Assembly (NCBI RefSeq): GCF_900104925.1
Contig: NZ_LT629735.1
Location: 3,331,001-3,395,000 of the forward strand
Direction of reading: 5' to 3'
Length of the DNA: 64,000 nt
Source of the DNA: Opitutus sp. GAS368
Lineage (GTDB): Bacteria; Verrucomicrobiota; Verrucomicrobiia; Opitutales; Opitutaceae
Shown here one piece after another: positions 13,901 through 63,622 of the stretch. Position 1 is the first letter of the stretch, and each line of letters begins with the position of its first letter. The translations under genes and the position numbers were made by a program. A model generated the notes under the pieces. The model did no database searches, was not told the DNA's origin, and saw only the letters and a list, made by a program, of their open reading frames with translations.

Positions 13901-13966
13901 TCCACAGGAGGAAACGGAGAAAACAGAGACCGGGTTGATCTCGGTTACCTCCGTTATCTCCTGTGA
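13901..13966. repeat. Short 9-base-phased inverted-repeat element between hypF and hypC
   Basis: Left arm 13902-13930 (CACAGGAG, AACGGAG, AACAGAG spaced by 9) and right arm 13944-13966, whose complement is CACAGGAG-nn-AACGGAG. Only about 13 bases separate the arms. The arms match the ends of the GxxExxY element at 37877-38341, so this looks like a gene-less copy. It sits 7 bases from the hypF stop. Confidence 0.8.
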
Positions 13967-29617: not shown

Positions 29618-30069
29618 AAAAACGACCCGGCGTATGCGACGTAGCCGCCTTTCCTTGTTATCTATGGTCAATCACTGTCCGAGGGGCGTTCGAGCATCGA
29701 ACTGGGGCGTGTTGGCCCTTCGCTCGCCATTGTCCAACTCGCCGCGATCTTCGCTTGTCCCGCTTACTGATTTCGCCAACACGGTCTAGGGTCCCGTCAG
29801 ATAAGTTCACTGCCTGATCTCAAGAGACCAATTTCCGGATGTAGGAGCCTGCTTGCAGGCGATTTTGACCCGCGGAGCCAATCCCCACGCCTGAATCGCC
29901 CGCAAGCAGGCTCCTACCATATGAACCGAACTTGTCTGACACCACCCTGGCCCTACTCCGTCAGGTAGATGAAGCCCCGGGGTGGGTCGGAACCTGACGG
30001 AGTGGTGCCAGGCGCCAACTCTGGAAATCGAAATGGAGCGTCTGGCATCTGCCGGTTACCGCGGTTGAC
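29618..30069. other. Intergenic region without a gene, containing a REP-like pair
   Basis: This 452-base stretch between two converging genes holds no convincing coding frame. The only structure seen is the GTAGGAGCCTGC palindrome pair at 29841-29917. Confidence 0.6.
29841..29917. repeat. REP-like inverted pair (GTAGGAGCCTGC family)
   Basis: Left arm GTAGGAGCCTGCTTGCAGGC (29841-29860), each arm itself a hairpin (GCCTGC-TT-GCAGGC), and right arm ending AGCAGGCTCCTAC at 29905-29917 as its complement. A near-identical pair lies at 48894-48969. Confidence 0.8.
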
Positions 30070-34263: not shown

Positions 34264-34279
34264 GCAGAGCGGGGTTTTG

Positions 34280-34455
34280 ACCACGGATTGCACGGATGAA
34301 CCCGGATCAGTTGCCGTGGCTGTCATCCTGAGCATCGCGAAGGATCCATTACTCCGGCGGGCGCATATCATGCTGGATTCTTCGCCGCGCTCAGAATGAC
34401 AATCAGCGGATATTTCCTCTCCATCCGTGTTCATCCGTGAAATCCGTGGTTAAAC
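34280..34455. repeat. Nested inverted-repeat element between accD and folC
   Basis: Outer arms: left 34280-34310 (CCACGGATT, GCACGGATG, AACCCGGAT at 9-base steps) and right 34421-34455, its complement (CATCCGTG, CATCCGTG, ATCCGTGG). Inner arms: TGTCATCCTGAGC at 34321-34333 with GCGAAGGATCC, and the complement GGATTCTTCGCCGCGCTCAG then AATGACA at 34375-34402. Two different inverted repeats are thus nested. The folC start codon lies in the right outer arm. Confidence 0.8.
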
Positions 34456-37876: not shown

Positions 37877-38341
37877 TTTGCACAGGAGCTAACGGAGGGA
37901 ACGGAGAGAATGCATCCTTTGTTTCAGAAGGCTGATGGATTGACCGAACATATCATCGGTGCAGCCATTGAAGTGCACAAAGACAAAGGTCCTGGATTGA
38001 TTGAATCGATTTATGAGTGGTGTCTTTTGCGCGAATTGGAATTGCGGCGGCTCACCACGGAGTCGCAAAGAGTGGTGCGGCTGAACTATAAAGGTTTCAC
38101 GCGGGATGAGCCCCTAAGATTTGATGTCTTGGTCGAAGGCTGCGTTCTGGTGGAGGCCAAGGCGGCCGAGGCCGTTTTGCCAATCCACAAGGCGCAGCTT
38201 TTGAGCTACATGAAACTGCTCGATGTTCCAGTAGGATTGCTCATCAACTTCAATGTTTCGAAACTAACGGACGGTGTTTCCCGGCTCATGTTGCCTGGGG
38301 TTAATCTATAACTCCGTTCTCTCCGTTGCCTCCTGTGCAAA
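37877..38341. mobile_element. 465-bp element with terminal inverted repeats carrying one GxxExxY gene
   Basis: The ends are perfect 12-base inverted repeats, TTTGCACAGGAG at 37877-37888 and CTCCTGTGCAAA at 38330-38341. Inside them the match continues: AACGGAG and GAACGGAG on the left (to 37906), and CTCCGTTC and CTCCGTT on the right, with 9-base periodicity. The element begins one base after the epimerase stop and its right end contains the GTG start of the aminotransferase gene. The single gene fills the interior. Composition is clearly more A/T-rich than its neighbours. No clear target duplication was seen. Mobility is inferred. Confidence 0.65.
37910..38311 (+). CDS. GxxExxY protein (PDDEXK_3 family)
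   Basis: A 133-residue protein with the family signature GLIESIYEWCL (G-x-x-E-x-x-Y, residues 29-35) preceded by GAAIEVHKDKGPG. FDVLVEGCVLVEAKA (about 72-86) gives the Asp and Glu-x-Lys of a PD-(D/E)xK nuclease-like site. The family is common in environmental bacteria; its biochemical role is not established. The Shine-Dalgarno-like GGAG before the ATG lies in the left terminal repeat, so the element supplies its own ribosome site. The gene is flanked on both sides by inverted arms matching gene-less copies at 13901-13966 and 63511-63622. Confidence 0.9.
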   Translation: MHPLFQKADGLTEHIIGAAIEVHKDKGPGLIESIYEWCLLRELELRRLTTESQRVVRLNYKGFTRDEPLRFDVLVEGCVLVEAKAAEAVLPIHKAQLLSYMKLLDVPVGLLINFNVSKLTDGVSRLMLPGVNL

Positions 38342-39473: not shown

Positions 39474-39617
39474 GGTAGTTTAATACCAAACACCCAAAGC
39501 TTTTACACGAAGGCCGCAAAGAACGCAGAGATATTTCCCATCGCAGGATCTGCTTCGCGGTCTTGGCGACCTTGGTGTAGAGTGTAGTAGCTTGAGGCGA
39601 TTGGTATAATAGACTAC
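39474..39617. repeat. 9-base-phased inverted-repeat element after the aminotransferase gene
   Basis: Left arm 39504-39531 (TACACGAAG, GCCGCAAAG, AACGCAGAG) and right arm 39552-39582, its complement (CTTCGCGG, CTTGGCGA, CTTGGTGTA). An outer layer adds TAGTTTAATACCAA on the left and TTGGTATAATAGACTA on the right (39600-39615). Confidence 0.7.
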
Positions 39618-45692: not shown

Positions 45693-45762
45693 GCGGGTAG
45701 GGCGAGTCGTCCCGACGAGCCGCGTGCAGCAACGGCTCATCCGGAGGATTCGCCCTACCCGC
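45693..45762. repeat. REP-like inverted pair (GGGTAGGGCGA family)
   Basis: GCGGGTAGGGCGA at 45693-45705 and TCGCCCTACCCGC at 45750-45762 are perfect complements. The pair abuts the stop codon of the GH2 gene at 45763. A half copy (GACTCGCCCTAC) lies at 50391-50402. Confidence 0.82.
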
Positions 45763-48872: not shown

Positions 48873-48893
48873 GAGGGGCAGTTTGGTCGGCAT

Positions 48894-48969
48894 GTAGGAG
48901 CCTGCTGGCAGGCGATTCAGGACGTGATCCGTCGGCCCGGCTTCAAATCGCCTGCCAGCAGGCTCCTAC
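48894..48969. repeat. REP-like inverted pair (GTAGGAGCCTGC family)
   Basis: GTAGGAGCCTGCTGGCAGGC begins at 48894 and the complement GCCTGCCAGCAGGCTCCTAC ends at 48969. The pair overlaps the last codon of the GH1 gene, whose TAG stop is supplied by the repeat (48966-48968). It is very similar to 29841-29917. Confidence 0.85.
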
Positions 48970-50315
48970 AAAATACGGTTGGCGGCGATGACGGCGGCAT
49001 ACCACCCGGCGCTGAGCTTGGGGGTGCGGCGCTGGGTCTTGAAATTGTTGTGCACGATGCCGAAGCGGCGGCGGTAGCCGTCGGCCCACTCGAAGTTGTC
49101 GATGAACGACCACAGGAAATAGCCGCGCACCGGCGCGCCGTCGGCCATGGCGCGGTGCAGCTCGCGCAGGTAGCTGCGGAGGAACTCGACGCGGTGCAGG
49201 TCGAGGCACTCGCCGCGGACCACGGCGTCGTCGTTGTAGCCGCAGCCGTTCTCGGTGATGTAGATGTTTTTCTCGCCGTAGACCTCGGCGGCCAGCCGGG
49301 GCGTCCAGTAGAGGGCGCGGGGCGCGAGGTTGAGCCATGGGCTGTCGGCGCGGGGATAGCTGGCGCTCGGGGCGACCACCTCGGGCCGGCCGCGGGCGCC
49401 GCGGCGCACGAAGGTGCCGCTGTAGATGTTGAGGCCGAGGAAATCCGTCCGCTGGCTGATCAGCGCGAAGTCGCCGCGCGCCACCGTGGGGCGGTCCCGG
49501 CCGCAGCGGCGCAGGTAGGCCGGGGCGTAGTGTCCGCGGTAGATCGGGTCGAGCACCGGCTGGTTGGCCTCGATGAACCAGGCGCGCGCCGCCGCGATGT
49601 CGGCCGCCGATTCCGCGACCGGGATGACCGTCTCGCAATTGTCCGTCAGGCCCACGCGGGCGCCGCGGCCGCCGTGCGCGCGCACGGCGCGGACACCGTG
49701 GCCGTGGCAGACCAGGGCGTGGTGCATCGTCTGGTTGACCGTGCGGGCGCTCTCGCGGCCACCAGGCGCCTTGGTGCCCTCGCCGTAGGCATGCACGGTG
49801 AAGCAGCGGATTTCATTCAGCGTGATCCAGTTTTTGACGCGGTCGCCGTAGGCCCGGACGATGGTGTCGGCGTAGGTGGCGAACGCCTCGGGCACGACCC
49901 GCGCGCGCCAGCCGCCGCGGTCCTCCAGCGCCTGCGGCAGATCCCAGTGGAACATCGTCACCCAGGGCGTGATGCCGTGCTGGAGCAACGAATCGATCAG
50001 GCGGTGATAAAAATCCACGCCGCGCCGGTTCACGGCCCCGTCCCCGTGCGGGAAAATCCTCGGCCACGCCAGCGAGAGGCGGTAGTGTTTGATGCCGAGC
50101 CGGCGCATCAGCGCGAAGTCCTGCGCATAGCGGTGGTAATGGTCGCACGCGACATCGAGGGTGTCGCCGTCGGCCACGGCGCCGGGCCGGCGCGCGAAGC
50201 GGTCCCAGACCGACTCGCCCTTGCCTCCGGTGAAGGCCGCGCCCTCGATCTGGGGCGCGGCGGTGGCCGTGCCCCAGGTGAAGTTGCGGGGGAACTGGAA
50301 GGGAGCGCGGGACAT
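48966..50315 (-). CDS. Glycoside hydrolase family 1 beta-glucosidase
   Basis: The 449-residue protein is a typical GH1 enzyme: FPRNFTWGTATAAPQIEGA at the N-terminus, HYRLSLAWPRIFP, FHWDLPQAL, and the nucleophile in IYITENGCGYND (about residue 355). The acid/base motif, usually TLNEP, is TLNEI (about residue 168), retaining Glu. No signal peptide is present, so it acts in the cytoplasm on imported glucosides. It lies between LacI regulator and serine hydrolase, all on minus. Confidence 0.93.
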   Translation of the reverse strand: MSRAPFQFPRNFTWGTATAAPQIEGAAFTGGKGESVWDRFARRPGAVADGDTLDVACDHYHRYAQDFALMRRLGIKHYRLSLAWPRIFPHGDGAVNRRGVDFYHRLIDSLLQHGITPWVTMFHWDLPQALEDRGGWRARVVPEAFATYADTIVRAYGDRVKNWITLNEIRCFTVHAYGEGTKAPGGRESARTVNQTMHHALVCHGHGVRAVRAHGGRGARVGLTDNCETVIPVAESAADIAAARAWFIEANQPVLDPIYRGHYAPAYLRRCGRDRPTVARGDFALISQRTDFLGLNIYSGTFVRRGARGRPEVVAPSASYPRADSPWLNLAPRALYWTPRLAAEVYGEKNIYITENGCGYNDDAVVRGECLDLHRVEFLRSYLRELHRAMADGAPVRGYFLWSFIDNFEWADGYRRRFGIVHNNFKTQRRTPKLSAGWYAAVIAANRIL

Positions 50316-54953: not shown

Positions 54954-55309
54954 CCATGCTTCCCGGGTTTTTTGCTGTAGGGTCGGCCCTTGTGGCCGGA
55001 CCGGTCCGCCGACAAGCGGCGACCCTACCAAAGGGGTAGTTTAGGGTAGGGCGCGCACCGGGGTGTTACCGGTGCGCGCTTCCCCCAGGCTCCCGCTCAA
55101 TTTGAATCGAGGTGGAACGCGGCCTCCGGACGCGTTTTGGGGCCGCGCGAATCCTGAAGCGCGTCCCGAGGCCGCGTTCCACCCTCAAGCCATGATTACC
55201 TATTCCAGGTTTTTTGCGATGAGCGGGGCTTTACGCCCCGCCCGAAGCCGGTTGCAATGAGCCCTGACCCCCGCGGCATTCCGCCGCGCTTTCCACCCCT
55301 CCCTCCGTC
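54954..55309. repeat. Cluster of four different palindromic repeats between receptor and transporter
   Basis: Four distinct inverted repeats fill this gap. (1) GTAGGGTCG pair at 54977-55028, the family found within folC. (2) A perfect 11-base hairpin at 55051-55079 (GCGCGCACCGG, 7-base loop, complement). (3) GGTGGAACGCGGCCTC at 55111-55126 with its complement at 55168-55183, one mismatch in the longer match. (4) CGGGGC-TTTAC-GCCCCG at 55224-55240, similar to arms at 56748-56818. No gene is present. The hairpins may end transcription or stabilise the receptor mRNA. Confidence 0.8.
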
Positions 55310-56689: not shown

Positions 56690-56863
56690 CACCACGGAAC
56701 ACACGGAATACACGGAATATGATTTCTAATCAAAAACCTGCCTTGGAGTGGGAGGGGCTTTATGCCCCGACTTTGCCCGTCCGCCGGTTATTTTGTCGGG
56801 GCGTAAAGCCCCTCCCACGGTTCCACCGCCTCTTTCCGTGTATTCCGTGTGTTCTGTGGTTTC
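56690..56863. repeat. Nested inverted-repeat element overlapping the start of the GH30 gene
   Basis: Outer arms: left 56690-56718 (CCACGGAACA, CACGGAATA, CACGGAATA, 9-base steps) and right 56833-56863 (TTTCCGTGTATTCCGTGTGT then TCTGTGG). Inner arms: GTGGGAGGGGCTT from 56748 and AAGCCCCTCCCAC to 56818. Reading is continuous through the whole element in the GH30 frame. Confidence 0.8.
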
Positions 56864-58278: not shown

Positions 58279-58307
58279 TAACCAGGCCCGAGAATTCTGT
58301 CCTCCCT

Positions 58308-58374
58308 GTAGGGTCGCCGCTTGCGGCGACCTCGCGGGATGCGGCGGTTAGGTCGTCGCCAGCGGCGACCCTAC
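58308..58374. repeat. REP-like inverted pair (GTAGGGTCG family)
   Basis: GTAGGGTCGCCGCTTGCGGC at 58308-58327 is complemented by GTCGCCAGCGGCGACCCTAC ending at 58374. It lies between GH30 stop and GH16 start. Confidence 0.85.
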
Positions 58375-58384
58375 ATTCCAGTCC

Positions 58385-59191
58385 ATGAACCCTATTCCCT
58401 TCCTCCTTCTGACTTCCTCTCTCCTCGCCATGTCTTCCCCCGCATCCAGCCCGGTCTGGCAGGACGAGTTCAACCAGCCGGCCGGCTCCGGGCCGGACCC
58501 GGCGAAATGGGTCCACGATCTCGGCGACAACGGCTGGGGCAACAAGGAGCTGCAGGCCTACACGGCCTCGCGGGAGAATTCCTTCATCGTGGACGACCCC
58601 GAGGCCACCGACGGCAAGGCGCTCGTGCTGCGGGCCGTGCGCACCGCCGCCGGCGGTTACACCTCCGCCCGCCTGAAGACCCTCGGCAAATTCTCGACCG
58701 GCTACGGCCGCATCGAGGCGCGCCTGAAACTGCCGAAGGGGCAGGGCATCTGGCCCGCCTTCTGGATGCTCGGCGACAACATCAACCAGGTGCCCTGGCC
58801 GGCGTGCGGCGAGATCGACGTGGTCGAGCTCATCGGCCACAAGCCCGGCACGCTCCACGGCACGCTGCACGGGCCGGGTTACTCCGGCCAGCACGGCCTG
58901 ACCAAGACCACGGTGCTGCCCGGCGGCGCAAGCTTCAGCGAGGCCTACCACGTGTTTGCCGTCGACTGGCAGCCGGGCAGGATCGAGTGGCTGCTCGACG
59001 GCAAGGTCTACCACACGGTCACGCCCGCCGACCTGCCCGCGGGAACGAAATGGGTCTTCGACGGCGCCCGCCATTTTCTCCTGCTCAATCTCGCCGTCGG
59101 CGGCGCGTGGCCGGGCTACCCCGACGCCACGACGCAATTCCCGCAGGAATACCGCATCGACTACGTCCGCGTCTACGGGCCGAAGTTTTAG
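58385..59191 (+). CDS. Glycoside hydrolase family 16, laminarinase-like
   Basis: The 268-residue enzyme has a short signal peptide and the GH16 catalytic signature GEIDVVELIGHKPGTLHG (E-I-D-x-x-E, residues 142-147), followed by LHGPGYSGQHGLTKT and WLLDGKVYHTVTPADLP. The TLHGTLHGPGYSG pattern is typical of beta-1,3-glucanases (laminarinases). It probably cleaves the beta-1,3 backbone while GH30 removes 1,6 branches. The stop TAG lies directly before a repeat arm. Confidence 0.93.
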   Translation: MNPIPFLLLTSSLLAMSSPASSPVWQDEFNQPAGSGPDPAKWVHDLGDNGWGNKELQAYTASRENSFIVDDPEATDGKALVLRAVRTAAGGYTSARLKTLGKFSTGYGRIEARLKLPKGQGIWPAFWMLGDNINQVPWPACGEIDVVELIGHKPGTLHGTLHGPGYSGQHGLTKTTVLPGGASFSEAYHVFAVDWQPGRIEWLLDGKVYHTVTPADLPAGTKWVFDGARHFLLLNLAVGGAWPGYPDATTQFPQEYRIDYVRVYGPKF

Positions 59192-59358
59192 CACAGAGGC
59201 CATGGAGACCGCAGAGTTTTCACCACTAATGAACACTAAAACCACACTAATGATTAGTGACAAATTGGTGTCTTTTAGTGGTTAAACTACCTTGGCTTTA
59301 TGCATGCAATTCGTGGTCAACTGAATTTCTCCGCGTTCTCTGTGCCCTCCGTGTTTAA
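59191..59358. repeat. Nested inverted-repeat element between GH16 and TonB-like genes
   Basis: Outer arms: left 59191-59217 (GCACAGAGG, CCATGGAGA, CCGCAGAG) and right 59327-59356 (TCTCCGCG, TTCTCTGTG, CCCTCCGTG). Inner arms: ACCACTAATGAACACTAA (59222-59239) and the complement TTTAGTGGTT (59275-59284), with CACACTAATGATTAGTG between. The right arm lies in the 5' coding part of the next gene. Confidence 0.78.
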
Positions 59359-60169
59359 ATCTATCCTGGGGATCGGGGTGCTTTTGACCGCAACGTCCGC
59401 GTTTGCCGAGGATCCCGCCCCGCCGCTTCATTCCGAGGCGCCGGTCGAGTTGCCCACGGTGACCGTCAATGGTTCGCGCTTGGCGGATTATCCGCCCATT
59501 TCCCCCGCGGATTTGCGCGGCGGCGGCATCGCGCCGACCGAGCCGCCGGTGCGGCTCTTTTTCCCCGGCAGCGGCTACGCGGCGGGGATCGCCAAGGGGC
59601 AGGCCACCGTCTGCGTCGAGCTGGACGAGAAGGGCAATGCCACCGACTACCTGCTCGTGGCCTGGACCCAGAAGTATTTTGGCGAGGCGCTGCTGCGCGC
59701 CGCGCAGGACACGAAATACGCCCCGCTCCTGTTCAAGGGGGTCGCGGTGCCGTCGCGCTTCAACTTCGGCTACGAATTCACGCCGGACTTCAGCGTCCCC
59801 ATGAACACCTTCGACGCCGTCGAGCGCCGGGAGCTGGAGATCCGCGGGGGCCGGCCCGACTTCAAGTATCACCCGGTCACCGAGGCGGCCCTCGACAACC
59901 GGCTCGAGCGCGTGCGCGAGGCGGTGCCGCATTTCCCGGCCGGCTACACGCCGGTGGGCGGGAAGGGGGACTGGGTGGTCGTGTCGCTCTACATCGACGA
60001 GGAGGGCCATGTGCGGGTGCCGCGCGTGGACTCGGCCTCGTCGCCGCTGCTGGTCCGCAACGCCCTCCTGGCGGTGCATTACTGGCAGTTCAAGCCGGCG
60101 ACGGTGAAGGGCAAGCCGGCGCTGGTGTATGCGGCCTTCGCCGTGAGTTTCATCGAAGCCCCGAAGTAA
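59300..60169 (+). CDS. TonB C-terminal-domain-like secreted protein
   Basis: The 289-residue protein has a signal peptide (cleavage near TSAFAED). Two stretches resemble TonB C-terminal domains: CVELDEKGNATDYLLV with LLRAAQDTKYAPLLFKGVAV (about residues 110-160), and VSLYIDEEGHVRVPRV with NALLAVHYWQFKPATVKGKP (about 230-275). Residues 9-19 (NFSAFSVPSVF) are translated from the right arm of the repeat element. It may be a TonB-like energy transducer or periplasmic partner, but it lacks the usual N-terminal anchor with Pro-rich linker. A trace of a paralogue is left at 60429-60473. Confidence 0.7.
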   Translation: MHAIRGQLNFSAFSVPSVFKSILGIGVLLTATSAFAEDPAPPLHSEAPVELPTVTVNGSRLADYPPISPADLRGGGIAPTEPPVRLFFPGSGYAAGIAKGQATVCVELDEKGNATDYLLVAWTQKYFGEALLRAAQDTKYAPLLFKGVAVPSRFNFGYEFTPDFSVPMNTFDAVERRELEIRGGRPDFKYHPVTEAALDNRLERVREAVPHFPAGYTPVGGKGDWVVVSLYIDEEGHVRVPRVDSASSPLLVRNALLAVHYWQFKPATVKGKPALVYAAFAVSFIEAPK

Positions 60170-63461: not shown

Positions 63462-63495
63462 CAGAGACCTGAGACCTGAAACCTGAGACCTGAGG
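63462..63495. repeat. 7-base-periodic tract (ACCTGAG units) upstream of guaB
   Basis: GAGACCT, GAGACCT, GAAACCT, GAGACCT then GAGGG, four units in a row. Complementary tracts occur at 61793-61825 and around 63825-63840, with a related one at 60485-60510, so guaB is bracketed by inverted copies. Confidence 0.75.
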
Positions 63496-63510
63496 GTGAA
63501 AACCCACGCA

Positions 63511-63622
63511 TTTTACAGGAGATAACGGAGCCAACAGAGGTAGTCTGAAGCTAGGAAACCACGCCCCCAAGCTCCTGGCTTTCTATAATCCTTCTCCGTT
63601 CCCTCTGTTTCCTCCTGTGGAG
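63511..63622. repeat. 9-base-phased inverted-repeat element without gene
   Basis: Left arm 63511-63540 (TTTTACAGGAG, AACGGAG, AACAGAGG) and right arm 63591-63622, complement ACAGGAGG, AACAGAGG, GAACGGAGAAG. The arms match the ends of the GxxExxY element. The interior is about 50 bases. Confidence 0.8.

Follow-up and report, generated by a model that had tools for sequence, protein, structure and literature searches.

GxxExxY proteins and the inverted ladder repeats that bracket their genes probably form a partnered, mobile system, since the repeats (arms) differ from gene to gene and gene-less copies of them are scattered in the genome. The reading we find fairly probable is that gene and repeats are cognate duos that resemble REPIN-RAYT systems but are built around an unrelated PD-(D/E)XK enzyme. 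A ladder arm was defined as three 6- to 7-base units approximately one helical turn apart, the arms forming inverted pairs. The sequence analyzed, here called the window, is a 64,000-nucleotide stretch (positions 3331001 to 3395000) of the 4.15-Mb single-contig genome of Opitutus sp. GAS368.

The window element is a 465-base unit (window 37877-38341) consisting of a left arm, a GxxExxY gene and a right arm (Table 1). It separates two genes that the original prediction labelled as an epimerase and a DegT-type aminotransferase. Perfect 12-base terminal inverted repeats had been predicted, and TTTGCACAGGAG was found with zero mismatches at both ends (37877-37888 on the forward strand and 38330-38341 on the reverse strand). 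The AACGGAG units described as continuing in 9-base steps were present on both sides, the full arm layout being TTTGC, ACAGGAG, two free bases, AACGGAG, two free bases and AACGGAG. Within the window, TTTGCACAGGAG alone occurred at chance level when up to two mismatches were allowed (5 matches against 3.89 expected), and a two-unit pattern at three mismatches showed no excess over chance (28 against 21.65 expected). The significance of the arms therefore comes from exact ladder matches, which exceed their control, and not from loose 12-mer or two-unit matches. The product of the sole gene scored above the curated cut-offs of PF13366 (E value, 2.6e-35; 121.8 bits; cut-off, 22) and TIGR04256 (E value, 1.4e-37; 128.6 bits; cut-off, 35), which agrees with its assignment as a GxxExxY protein. 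A ribosome site inside the left arm is plausible for this gene, because the last left-arm unit ends just before its ATG, but does not extend to a general rule, because other GxxExxY genes have different arms at this place. The gene-less copies placed by the original prediction at 13901-13966 and 63511-63622 were both real.

Table 1. Coordinates of the window element and of gene-less ladder pairs (positions in the window)
Feature	Position	Strand	Remarks
Left ladder arm	37877..37906	+	TTTGC, then ACAGGAG, AACGGAG, AACGGAG in 9-base steps
GxxExxY gene	37910..38311	+	133 aa; predicted PD-(D/E)XK fold
Right ladder arm	38312..38341	-	Inverted copy of left arm; starts directly after stop codon
Gene-less ACAGGAG-type pair	13904..13964	.	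Arm cores
Gene-less ACAGGAG-type pair	63515..63618	.	Arm cores
Gene-less CACGGAT-type ladder pair	34276..34454	.	By eye like arms of GAS368 gene L011
Gene-less CACGGAA-type ladder pair	56691..56860	.	By eye like arms of GAS368 gene L004
Weaker CACAGAG-type ladder pair	59186..59359	.	Score 15, where mirror controls are also found; by eye like GAS368 L002
Weaker ACACGAAG/CGCAAAG-type ladder pair	39504..39579	.	Score 15, where mirror controls are also found; by eye like GAS368 L007

Other repeats were also present. Classical REP-like pairs of several types were located at window positions 29841-29917, 45693-45762, 48893-48970, 55111-55183 and 58307-58375, and similar pairs occupied ladder-pair loops at 34321-34401 and 56748-56818. 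At L105 7991-8082, L106 6796-6902 and window 63470-63497, ladder-like repeats of other types (CTGAAGG, TAAGC and CTGAGAC/CTGAAAC) were seen; by eye they match no arms of GxxExxY genes from GAS368.

The GAS368 genome carries 11 GxxExxY genes, 10 of which are enclosed by inverted ladders (L008 has no ladder). By eye, the ten ladders are all different and each is matched left to right; their types are ACAGGAG, CACTAAT, CACGAAT, CACGAAA, CACGGAA, CACGGAT, CGCGGAT, ACACCAAG/CGCAAAG, CACAGAG and CACGACG. At the phylum level, 40 loci were scored for inverted repeats, comprising the 11 from GAS368 and one from each of 29 other genomes (the highest-scoring of its genes to become a locus); the 95th percentile was exceeded by 35 when the controls were 154 shifted windows and by 30 when they were cross-pairings. 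For the genus, 103 genes were read out from 116 matches in 20 of 21 genomes and 102 were testable. Inverted repeats scoring at least 15 bracketed 90 of these, and 85 exceeded the 95th percentile of 1,470 cross-pairings; the 12 genes scoring below 15 count against cognate duos. A further 80 named loci were chosen only by likeness to the window protein. Reading frames were intact in 70 of them, and of the 79 with enough flank, 52 scored above the 99th percentile of 543 controls and 56 above the 95th, with the 23 that did not exceed the latter again counting against the duos. Ladders also flanked GxxExxY relatives in other phyla. All five plasmid records with a relative were scored: Bacteroides finegoldii (24) and Bernardetia (20) had clear ladder pairs, and Gemmatirosa (16, no clean pair), Sphingomonas (12) and Prevotella (11) were weaker.

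Arms were more frequent near GxxExxY genes, as the original prediction implied. At 69 loci (the window plus loci with at least 57% best-segment identity), 194 ACAG(G/A)AG arms lay within 250 bp of the gene, a density of 5.72 per kb compared with 0.00 to 0.23 per kb beyond 750 bp, and at 66 loci an arm was found no more than 260 bp from the gene. A single arm on each side with the gene inside was seen at 21 loci. The predicted arrangement of one arm pair around the gene does not hold throughout: at 14 of the 69 loci, the gene instead lies between two forward-reverse arm pairs. The remainder were mixed.

Gene-less pairs were abundant. In the GAS368 genome, CAGGAGNNAACRGAG had 62 exact occurrences compared with 0 for the reversed control, and 88 compared with 18 when one mismatch was allowed. 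From the 38 ACAGGAG-type pairs read out of the stretches of this genome that were covered, one contained the window gene, and 30 were 60 to 130 bp long. Across 14 further 20-kb stretches, 51 inverted repeats scored at least 19 compared with 3 mirror controls, and by eye these included ladder pairs of several types together with many classical REP pairs. Gene-less pairs were found in intergenic DNA and also in the loops of other repeats. The idea of an autonomous element with short derivatives was not supported in that form, as the 10 bracketed genes of GAS368 each have other arms and it is the gene-less pairs that have multiplied. Two local arrangements were also recorded: tandem gene-less ladder pairs beside a GxxExxY gene at L137 2416-2970 (four) and L148 3427-3954 (three), and dense ladder pairs, some of them nested, just past the window end (genome 3395-3443 kb).

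Genomes that carry the cognate gene had more gene-less pairs, although there were exceptions. CACTAAT ladders numbered 6, 15, 20, 25, 41 and 104 in the six genus genomes with a CACTAAT gene and 0 to 26 in the other 15 (P = 0.0016, uncorrected for kinship), and CGCTAAT ladders numbered 5, 21, 46 and 158 in four genomes with a CGCTAAT gene and 0 to 71 in the 17 without (P = 0.021, also uncorrected); genes were assigned to these types in the 21 genomes after the ladder counts had been seen, and G017 and G014, which have mixed arms, were counted as lacking a CGCTAAT gene. Because of the ladder excess in G005 and G012, additional CGCTAAT genes were suspected in both; the search turned one up in G005 (L286) and none in G012. 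G012, with 71 CGCTAAT ladders, and G016, with 26 CACTAAT ladders, are orphans in which no such gene was found and count against cognate duos. Across 145 genomes of the phylum, agreement between the arm pattern and the presence of a window-like protein was only partial. Ten or more ACAGGAG matches occurred in 2 of the 4 genomes encoding a protein that shares at least 65% identity with that of the window and in 3 of the 141 others, the pattern missing arm variants such as CGCRGAG. G092, G124 and G051 have many ACAGGAG ladders but no window-like protein, and G023 and G151 have the protein with few or no matches, both of which speak against the duos. With regard to pair structure, spacers between arm units were less complementary than chance in 21 ACAGGAG pairs of GAS368 that leave out the L091-L094 copies (0.226 compared with 0.347; P = 0.003), and more complementary than chance in 15 CACTAAT pairs; with the two types in opposition, a hairpin constraint on the pairs was dropped.

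Units of one element usually change together. At the named loci, one position of the arm units is either G or A (GGAG or GAAG), and the letter is nearly always uniform within an element, with a deviating unit in L120, L122, L137, L147 and L149, among others. On a protein tree of 72 rows (36 G, 12 A and 24 unlabelled), arm class changed 3 times compared with a shuffle mean of 10.8, and 0 of 500 shuffles were as low; the distant rows L179, L183 and L184 were labelled by a poorly fitting pattern. Both classes are present in Verrucomicrobiota and Planctomycetota. An exception that counts against cognate duos is L153, which has G arms and a protein that groups with the A class. Residues W37 and R65 separate the classes, although no claim of specificity is made for them because the class split is nearly one clade.

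Co-variation was also seen at fixed sites. At the L003 site, the element lies beside the same neighbor in 12 species, and four arm types (CACGAA, CGCGAAT, CACGGAA and CACSAAA; labelled by eye, the first and last being alike) match four protein groups. The arm types required 3 changes on the protein tree, the minimum possible, compared with 5 on the tree of the neighbor, several forks of these trees being weak. Common descent explains part of this match, because the arm types cluster on the neighbor's tree as well (a count as low in 3 of 200 shuffles). At the L005 site, elements with CGCTAAT arms (G004 and G001) encode proteins 64% and 61% identical to that of GAS368, and those with CACTAAT arms (G017, G012, G020, G005 and G015) encode proteins 73 to 92% identical; G014 has mixed arms. 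Among 90 genus genes, mean arm similarity was 24.1, 18.7, 10.8 and 8.1 at protein identities of 85 to 100, 70 to 85, 60 to 70 and 50 to 60%, respectively, and 6.6 to 6.7 below 50%; the left and right arms of one element scored 22.7 against each other. Mantel rho was 0.17 over all pairs and 0.22 within genomes, with 0 of 2,000 permutations as high in each. Below 50% protein identity, no arm-protein correlation was found among these genes, which counts against the duos. Overall, this co-variation between sequences supports recognition of the cognate arm by each GxxExxY protein.

An AlphaFold2 model of the window protein, generated with 48 sequences, had a pLDDT of 95.5. Its best solved match was 4ic1 (SSO0001; E value, 5.8e-4; TM, 0.52 by query length), a Cas4 protein, followed by a weaker match to lambda exonuclease. 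We are confident that the predicted fold is that of a PD-(D/E)XK nuclease and is nearest to Cas4. D72, E82 and K84 were invariant in the 48 sequences, and D72, K84, Q96 and Y100 in the 11 GAS368 paralogues; Q96 and Y100 fit the QxxxY motif. The predicted fold and D72, E82 and K84 are features shared with Cas4/RecB-like nucleases. The protein differs from Cas4 in size (133 aa compared with 202 to 206 for the solved match) and in its cysteines, as C38 was the only nearly invariant one in the 48 sequences and no conserved set for an iron-sulphur cluster was found among them. Pfam returned only PDDEXK_3 and a sub-threshold Cas4 match, and PADLOC, PHROGs and Rfam gave nothing decisive. No recognised transposase was identified in the window protein using Pfam, TIGR and PHROGs profiles, and a phage collection held no relatives of it.

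Empty sites at the window locus, looked for in relatives, were identified. The junction was examined in 19 relatives, 16 of which had both flanks; it was empty (a gap without a clear ladder) in 9 of the 16. Gaps were 3 to 33 bp in seven of these, G006 and G008 had a longer plain spacer, and G015 a possible trace. One of the 16 (G017) carries a gene-bearing element there, and 6 have other repeat units, among them G010 and G012 with a remaining right ACAGGAG arm. No signal of target-site duplication was detected in 131 mixed pairs or in the 38 GAS368 and 76 relative ACAG(G/A)AG pairs, the top offsets resting on 1 to 10 pairs out of hundreds of tests. An inverted target copy outside the arms was rejected as a candidate; it matched in the mixed set but was absent in the GAS368 family, and its partial presence among relatives is what a mixture of lineages would produce. 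No exact junction was mappable, which counts against cognate duos.

With respect to vertical single-copy inheritance, the L003 and L005 sites show long residence of the element but also one likely replacement. At the L005 site of G004, the flanks are approximately 90% identical to those of GAS368, yet the element has another arm type and a 64% identical protein. pN/pS at this site was 0.06 to 0.36, with high pS, which shows purifying selection on the gene. An argument for non-vertical inheritance from synonymous divergence (pS near saturation in the gene and not in its neighbors) was dropped because the GC3 of approximately 0.9 in the aminotransferase caps pS. In G018 (L198/L212) and G007 (L206), other inserts of 862 and 939 bp replace the GxxExxY element at the L005 site, and their downstream end reads like a RelE-type toxin.

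The replacement in G004, the lack of a detected target duplication and the right ACAGGAG arm that G010 and G012 retain at the window junction would all fit a homing-type selfish gene, which we nevertheless consider unlikely. Here, the nuclease would cut gene-less cognate pairs, and repair, with the arms serving as homology, would then copy in the gene-bearing version; the gene-less pairs would be vacant homing sites spread by something else. Some homing endonucleases are of the PD-(D/E)XK type, and the GxxExxY gene resembles theirs in encoding a small nuclease tied to a presumed site and in its turnover at fixed sites. In contrast to homing endonucleases, the presumed site is intact beside the GxxExxY gene and dispersed in many copies, and no intron or intein is involved. 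Homing also leaves the origin of dozens of gene-less pairs unexplained, most empty window junctions show no arm, and no gene has spread among the GAS368 pairs of its type, because the GAS368 genes have different arms.

Purifying selection, the gene's long residence at the L003 and L005 sites, arms that often adjoin gene starts and a weak sequence likeness to Cas4 in a defence library (E value, 0.0083), could instead indicate a DNA-binding or DNA-processing protein that serves the host in regulation, repair or defence. The pairs would then be its binding sites and their spread incidental or ancient. Persistence of the gene at one site could mean a host function, which counts against cognate duos; a host-serving role is nonetheless quite unlikely in our view, as a single genome has different arm types at different genes and the types at a given site turn over.

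Ladder pairs could also be moved by another enzyme, such as the Y1 transposases of GAS368, with GxxExxY genes as passengers. Nine Y1 matches were found in this genome, and one Y1 gene (3396105-3396467) sits inside an ACAGGAG pair (3395984-3396599; L091 4983-5600), so the Y1/REP and ladder systems overlap physically. However, within 400 bp of the other eight Y1 loci the best inverted repeat was never a ladder and in six was a GTAG-type REP, and a shared mover would not cause ladder identity to track the GxxExxY protein, leaving this already disfavored explanation highly improbable. A second Y1 gene, at 1734480, has the same score as that at 3396105-3396467. Also disfavored already, and hardly credible, is that the arms, which are intergenic and able to form imperfect hairpins, are ordinary host signals (terminators or host-factor binding sites), given the sharp enrichment at one gene family, the lack of any Rfam match in the window, and the many arm types of one genome (ten around ten GAS368 genes), each matched left to right, which disfavor a single host factor.

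REPIN-RAYT, to which the original prediction had already pointed, is the best functional analogy. As described in parts of PMC8049555 and PMC8266576, these systems combine a resident gene that selection maintains with repeats beside it and dispersed gene-less inverted pairs; the repeats are commoner where the gene is present, and protein and repeat co-vary. GxxExxY ladders share with this description a mostly resident gene, gene-adjacent repeats, dispersed pairs, co-variation and, with orphans as exceptions, a higher number of repeats where the gene is found. They differ in the enzyme, which is PD-(D/E)XK rather than HUH/Y1, in arms of three sub-sites rather than GTAG-tagged palindromes, and in the approximately ten ladder types of one genome; by eye, none of the ten GAS368 ladders at GxxExxY genes carries a GTAG/CGTC tag. 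In addition, part of PMC8049555 reports that RAYT genes are not seen on plasmids, whereas GxxExxY genes do occur there. Terminal inverted repeats, short non-coding relatives and empty sites are reminiscent of insertion sequences and MITEs, from which the GxxExxY element differs in that no target duplication was detected, no known transposase is present and the gene-bearing unit is not multiplied in GAS368. Searches of the open-access literature found no description of a GxxExxY-ladder system, an absence that is no proof of novelty. PDDEXK_3 together with an inverted repeat returned nothing there, of six arm strings one gave matches, which were unrelated, PDDEXK_3, PF13366 and TIGR04256 led only to an Arctic microalgae study, and palindromic repeats in these phyla to papers on known repeats. 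The term GxxExxY occurs in PMC8934634 and PMC12085832, and O. terrae is rich in GTAG repeats according to part of PMC3733652.

If the genes and ladders are cognate duos, each protein would recognise its own arm, three 6- to 7-base sub-sites approximately 8 to 11 bases apart in an inverted pair, and the gene would lie inside or between pairs, mostly resident and under purifying selection. The multiplying unit would be the gene-less pair and not the gene-bearing unit, settling between genes or within the loops of other pairs and leaving no detectable target duplication. From the predicted fold, the conserved residues and the parallel with RAYTs, we infer that the GxxExxY protein, rather than another enzyme, may cut and spread the repeats. 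As a multimer on the arms, predicted to have one sub-site per turn, it would cut at or beside the pair, and the pair or its copy could be joined elsewhere via host repair or at a replication fork, a putative copying route. When the specificity of a protein changes, its flanking arms would follow.

A protein family whose name reflects nothing but a motif would thereby gain a partner and a testable role. The chances seem to us evenly balanced that GxxExxY proteins represent a large natural set of tiny nucleases (approximately 125 aa), each with its own ladder of approximately 25 bases on both sides of its gene, that drive a widespread mobile repeat using neither DDE, HUH, tyrosine nor serine recombinases and reach some ten specificities in one genome. 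With a candidate recognition sequence on either side of every gene, comparing very many gene-repeat pairs could reveal the DNA specificity of the proteins. Such duos would be a further repeat system that parallels REPIN-RAYT while using an unrelated enzyme, and would account for repeats in the intergenic DNA of Verrucomicrobiota, Planctomycetota, Bacteroidota and probably other phyla. They also pose the problem of how DNA could be spread by a stand-alone nuclease.
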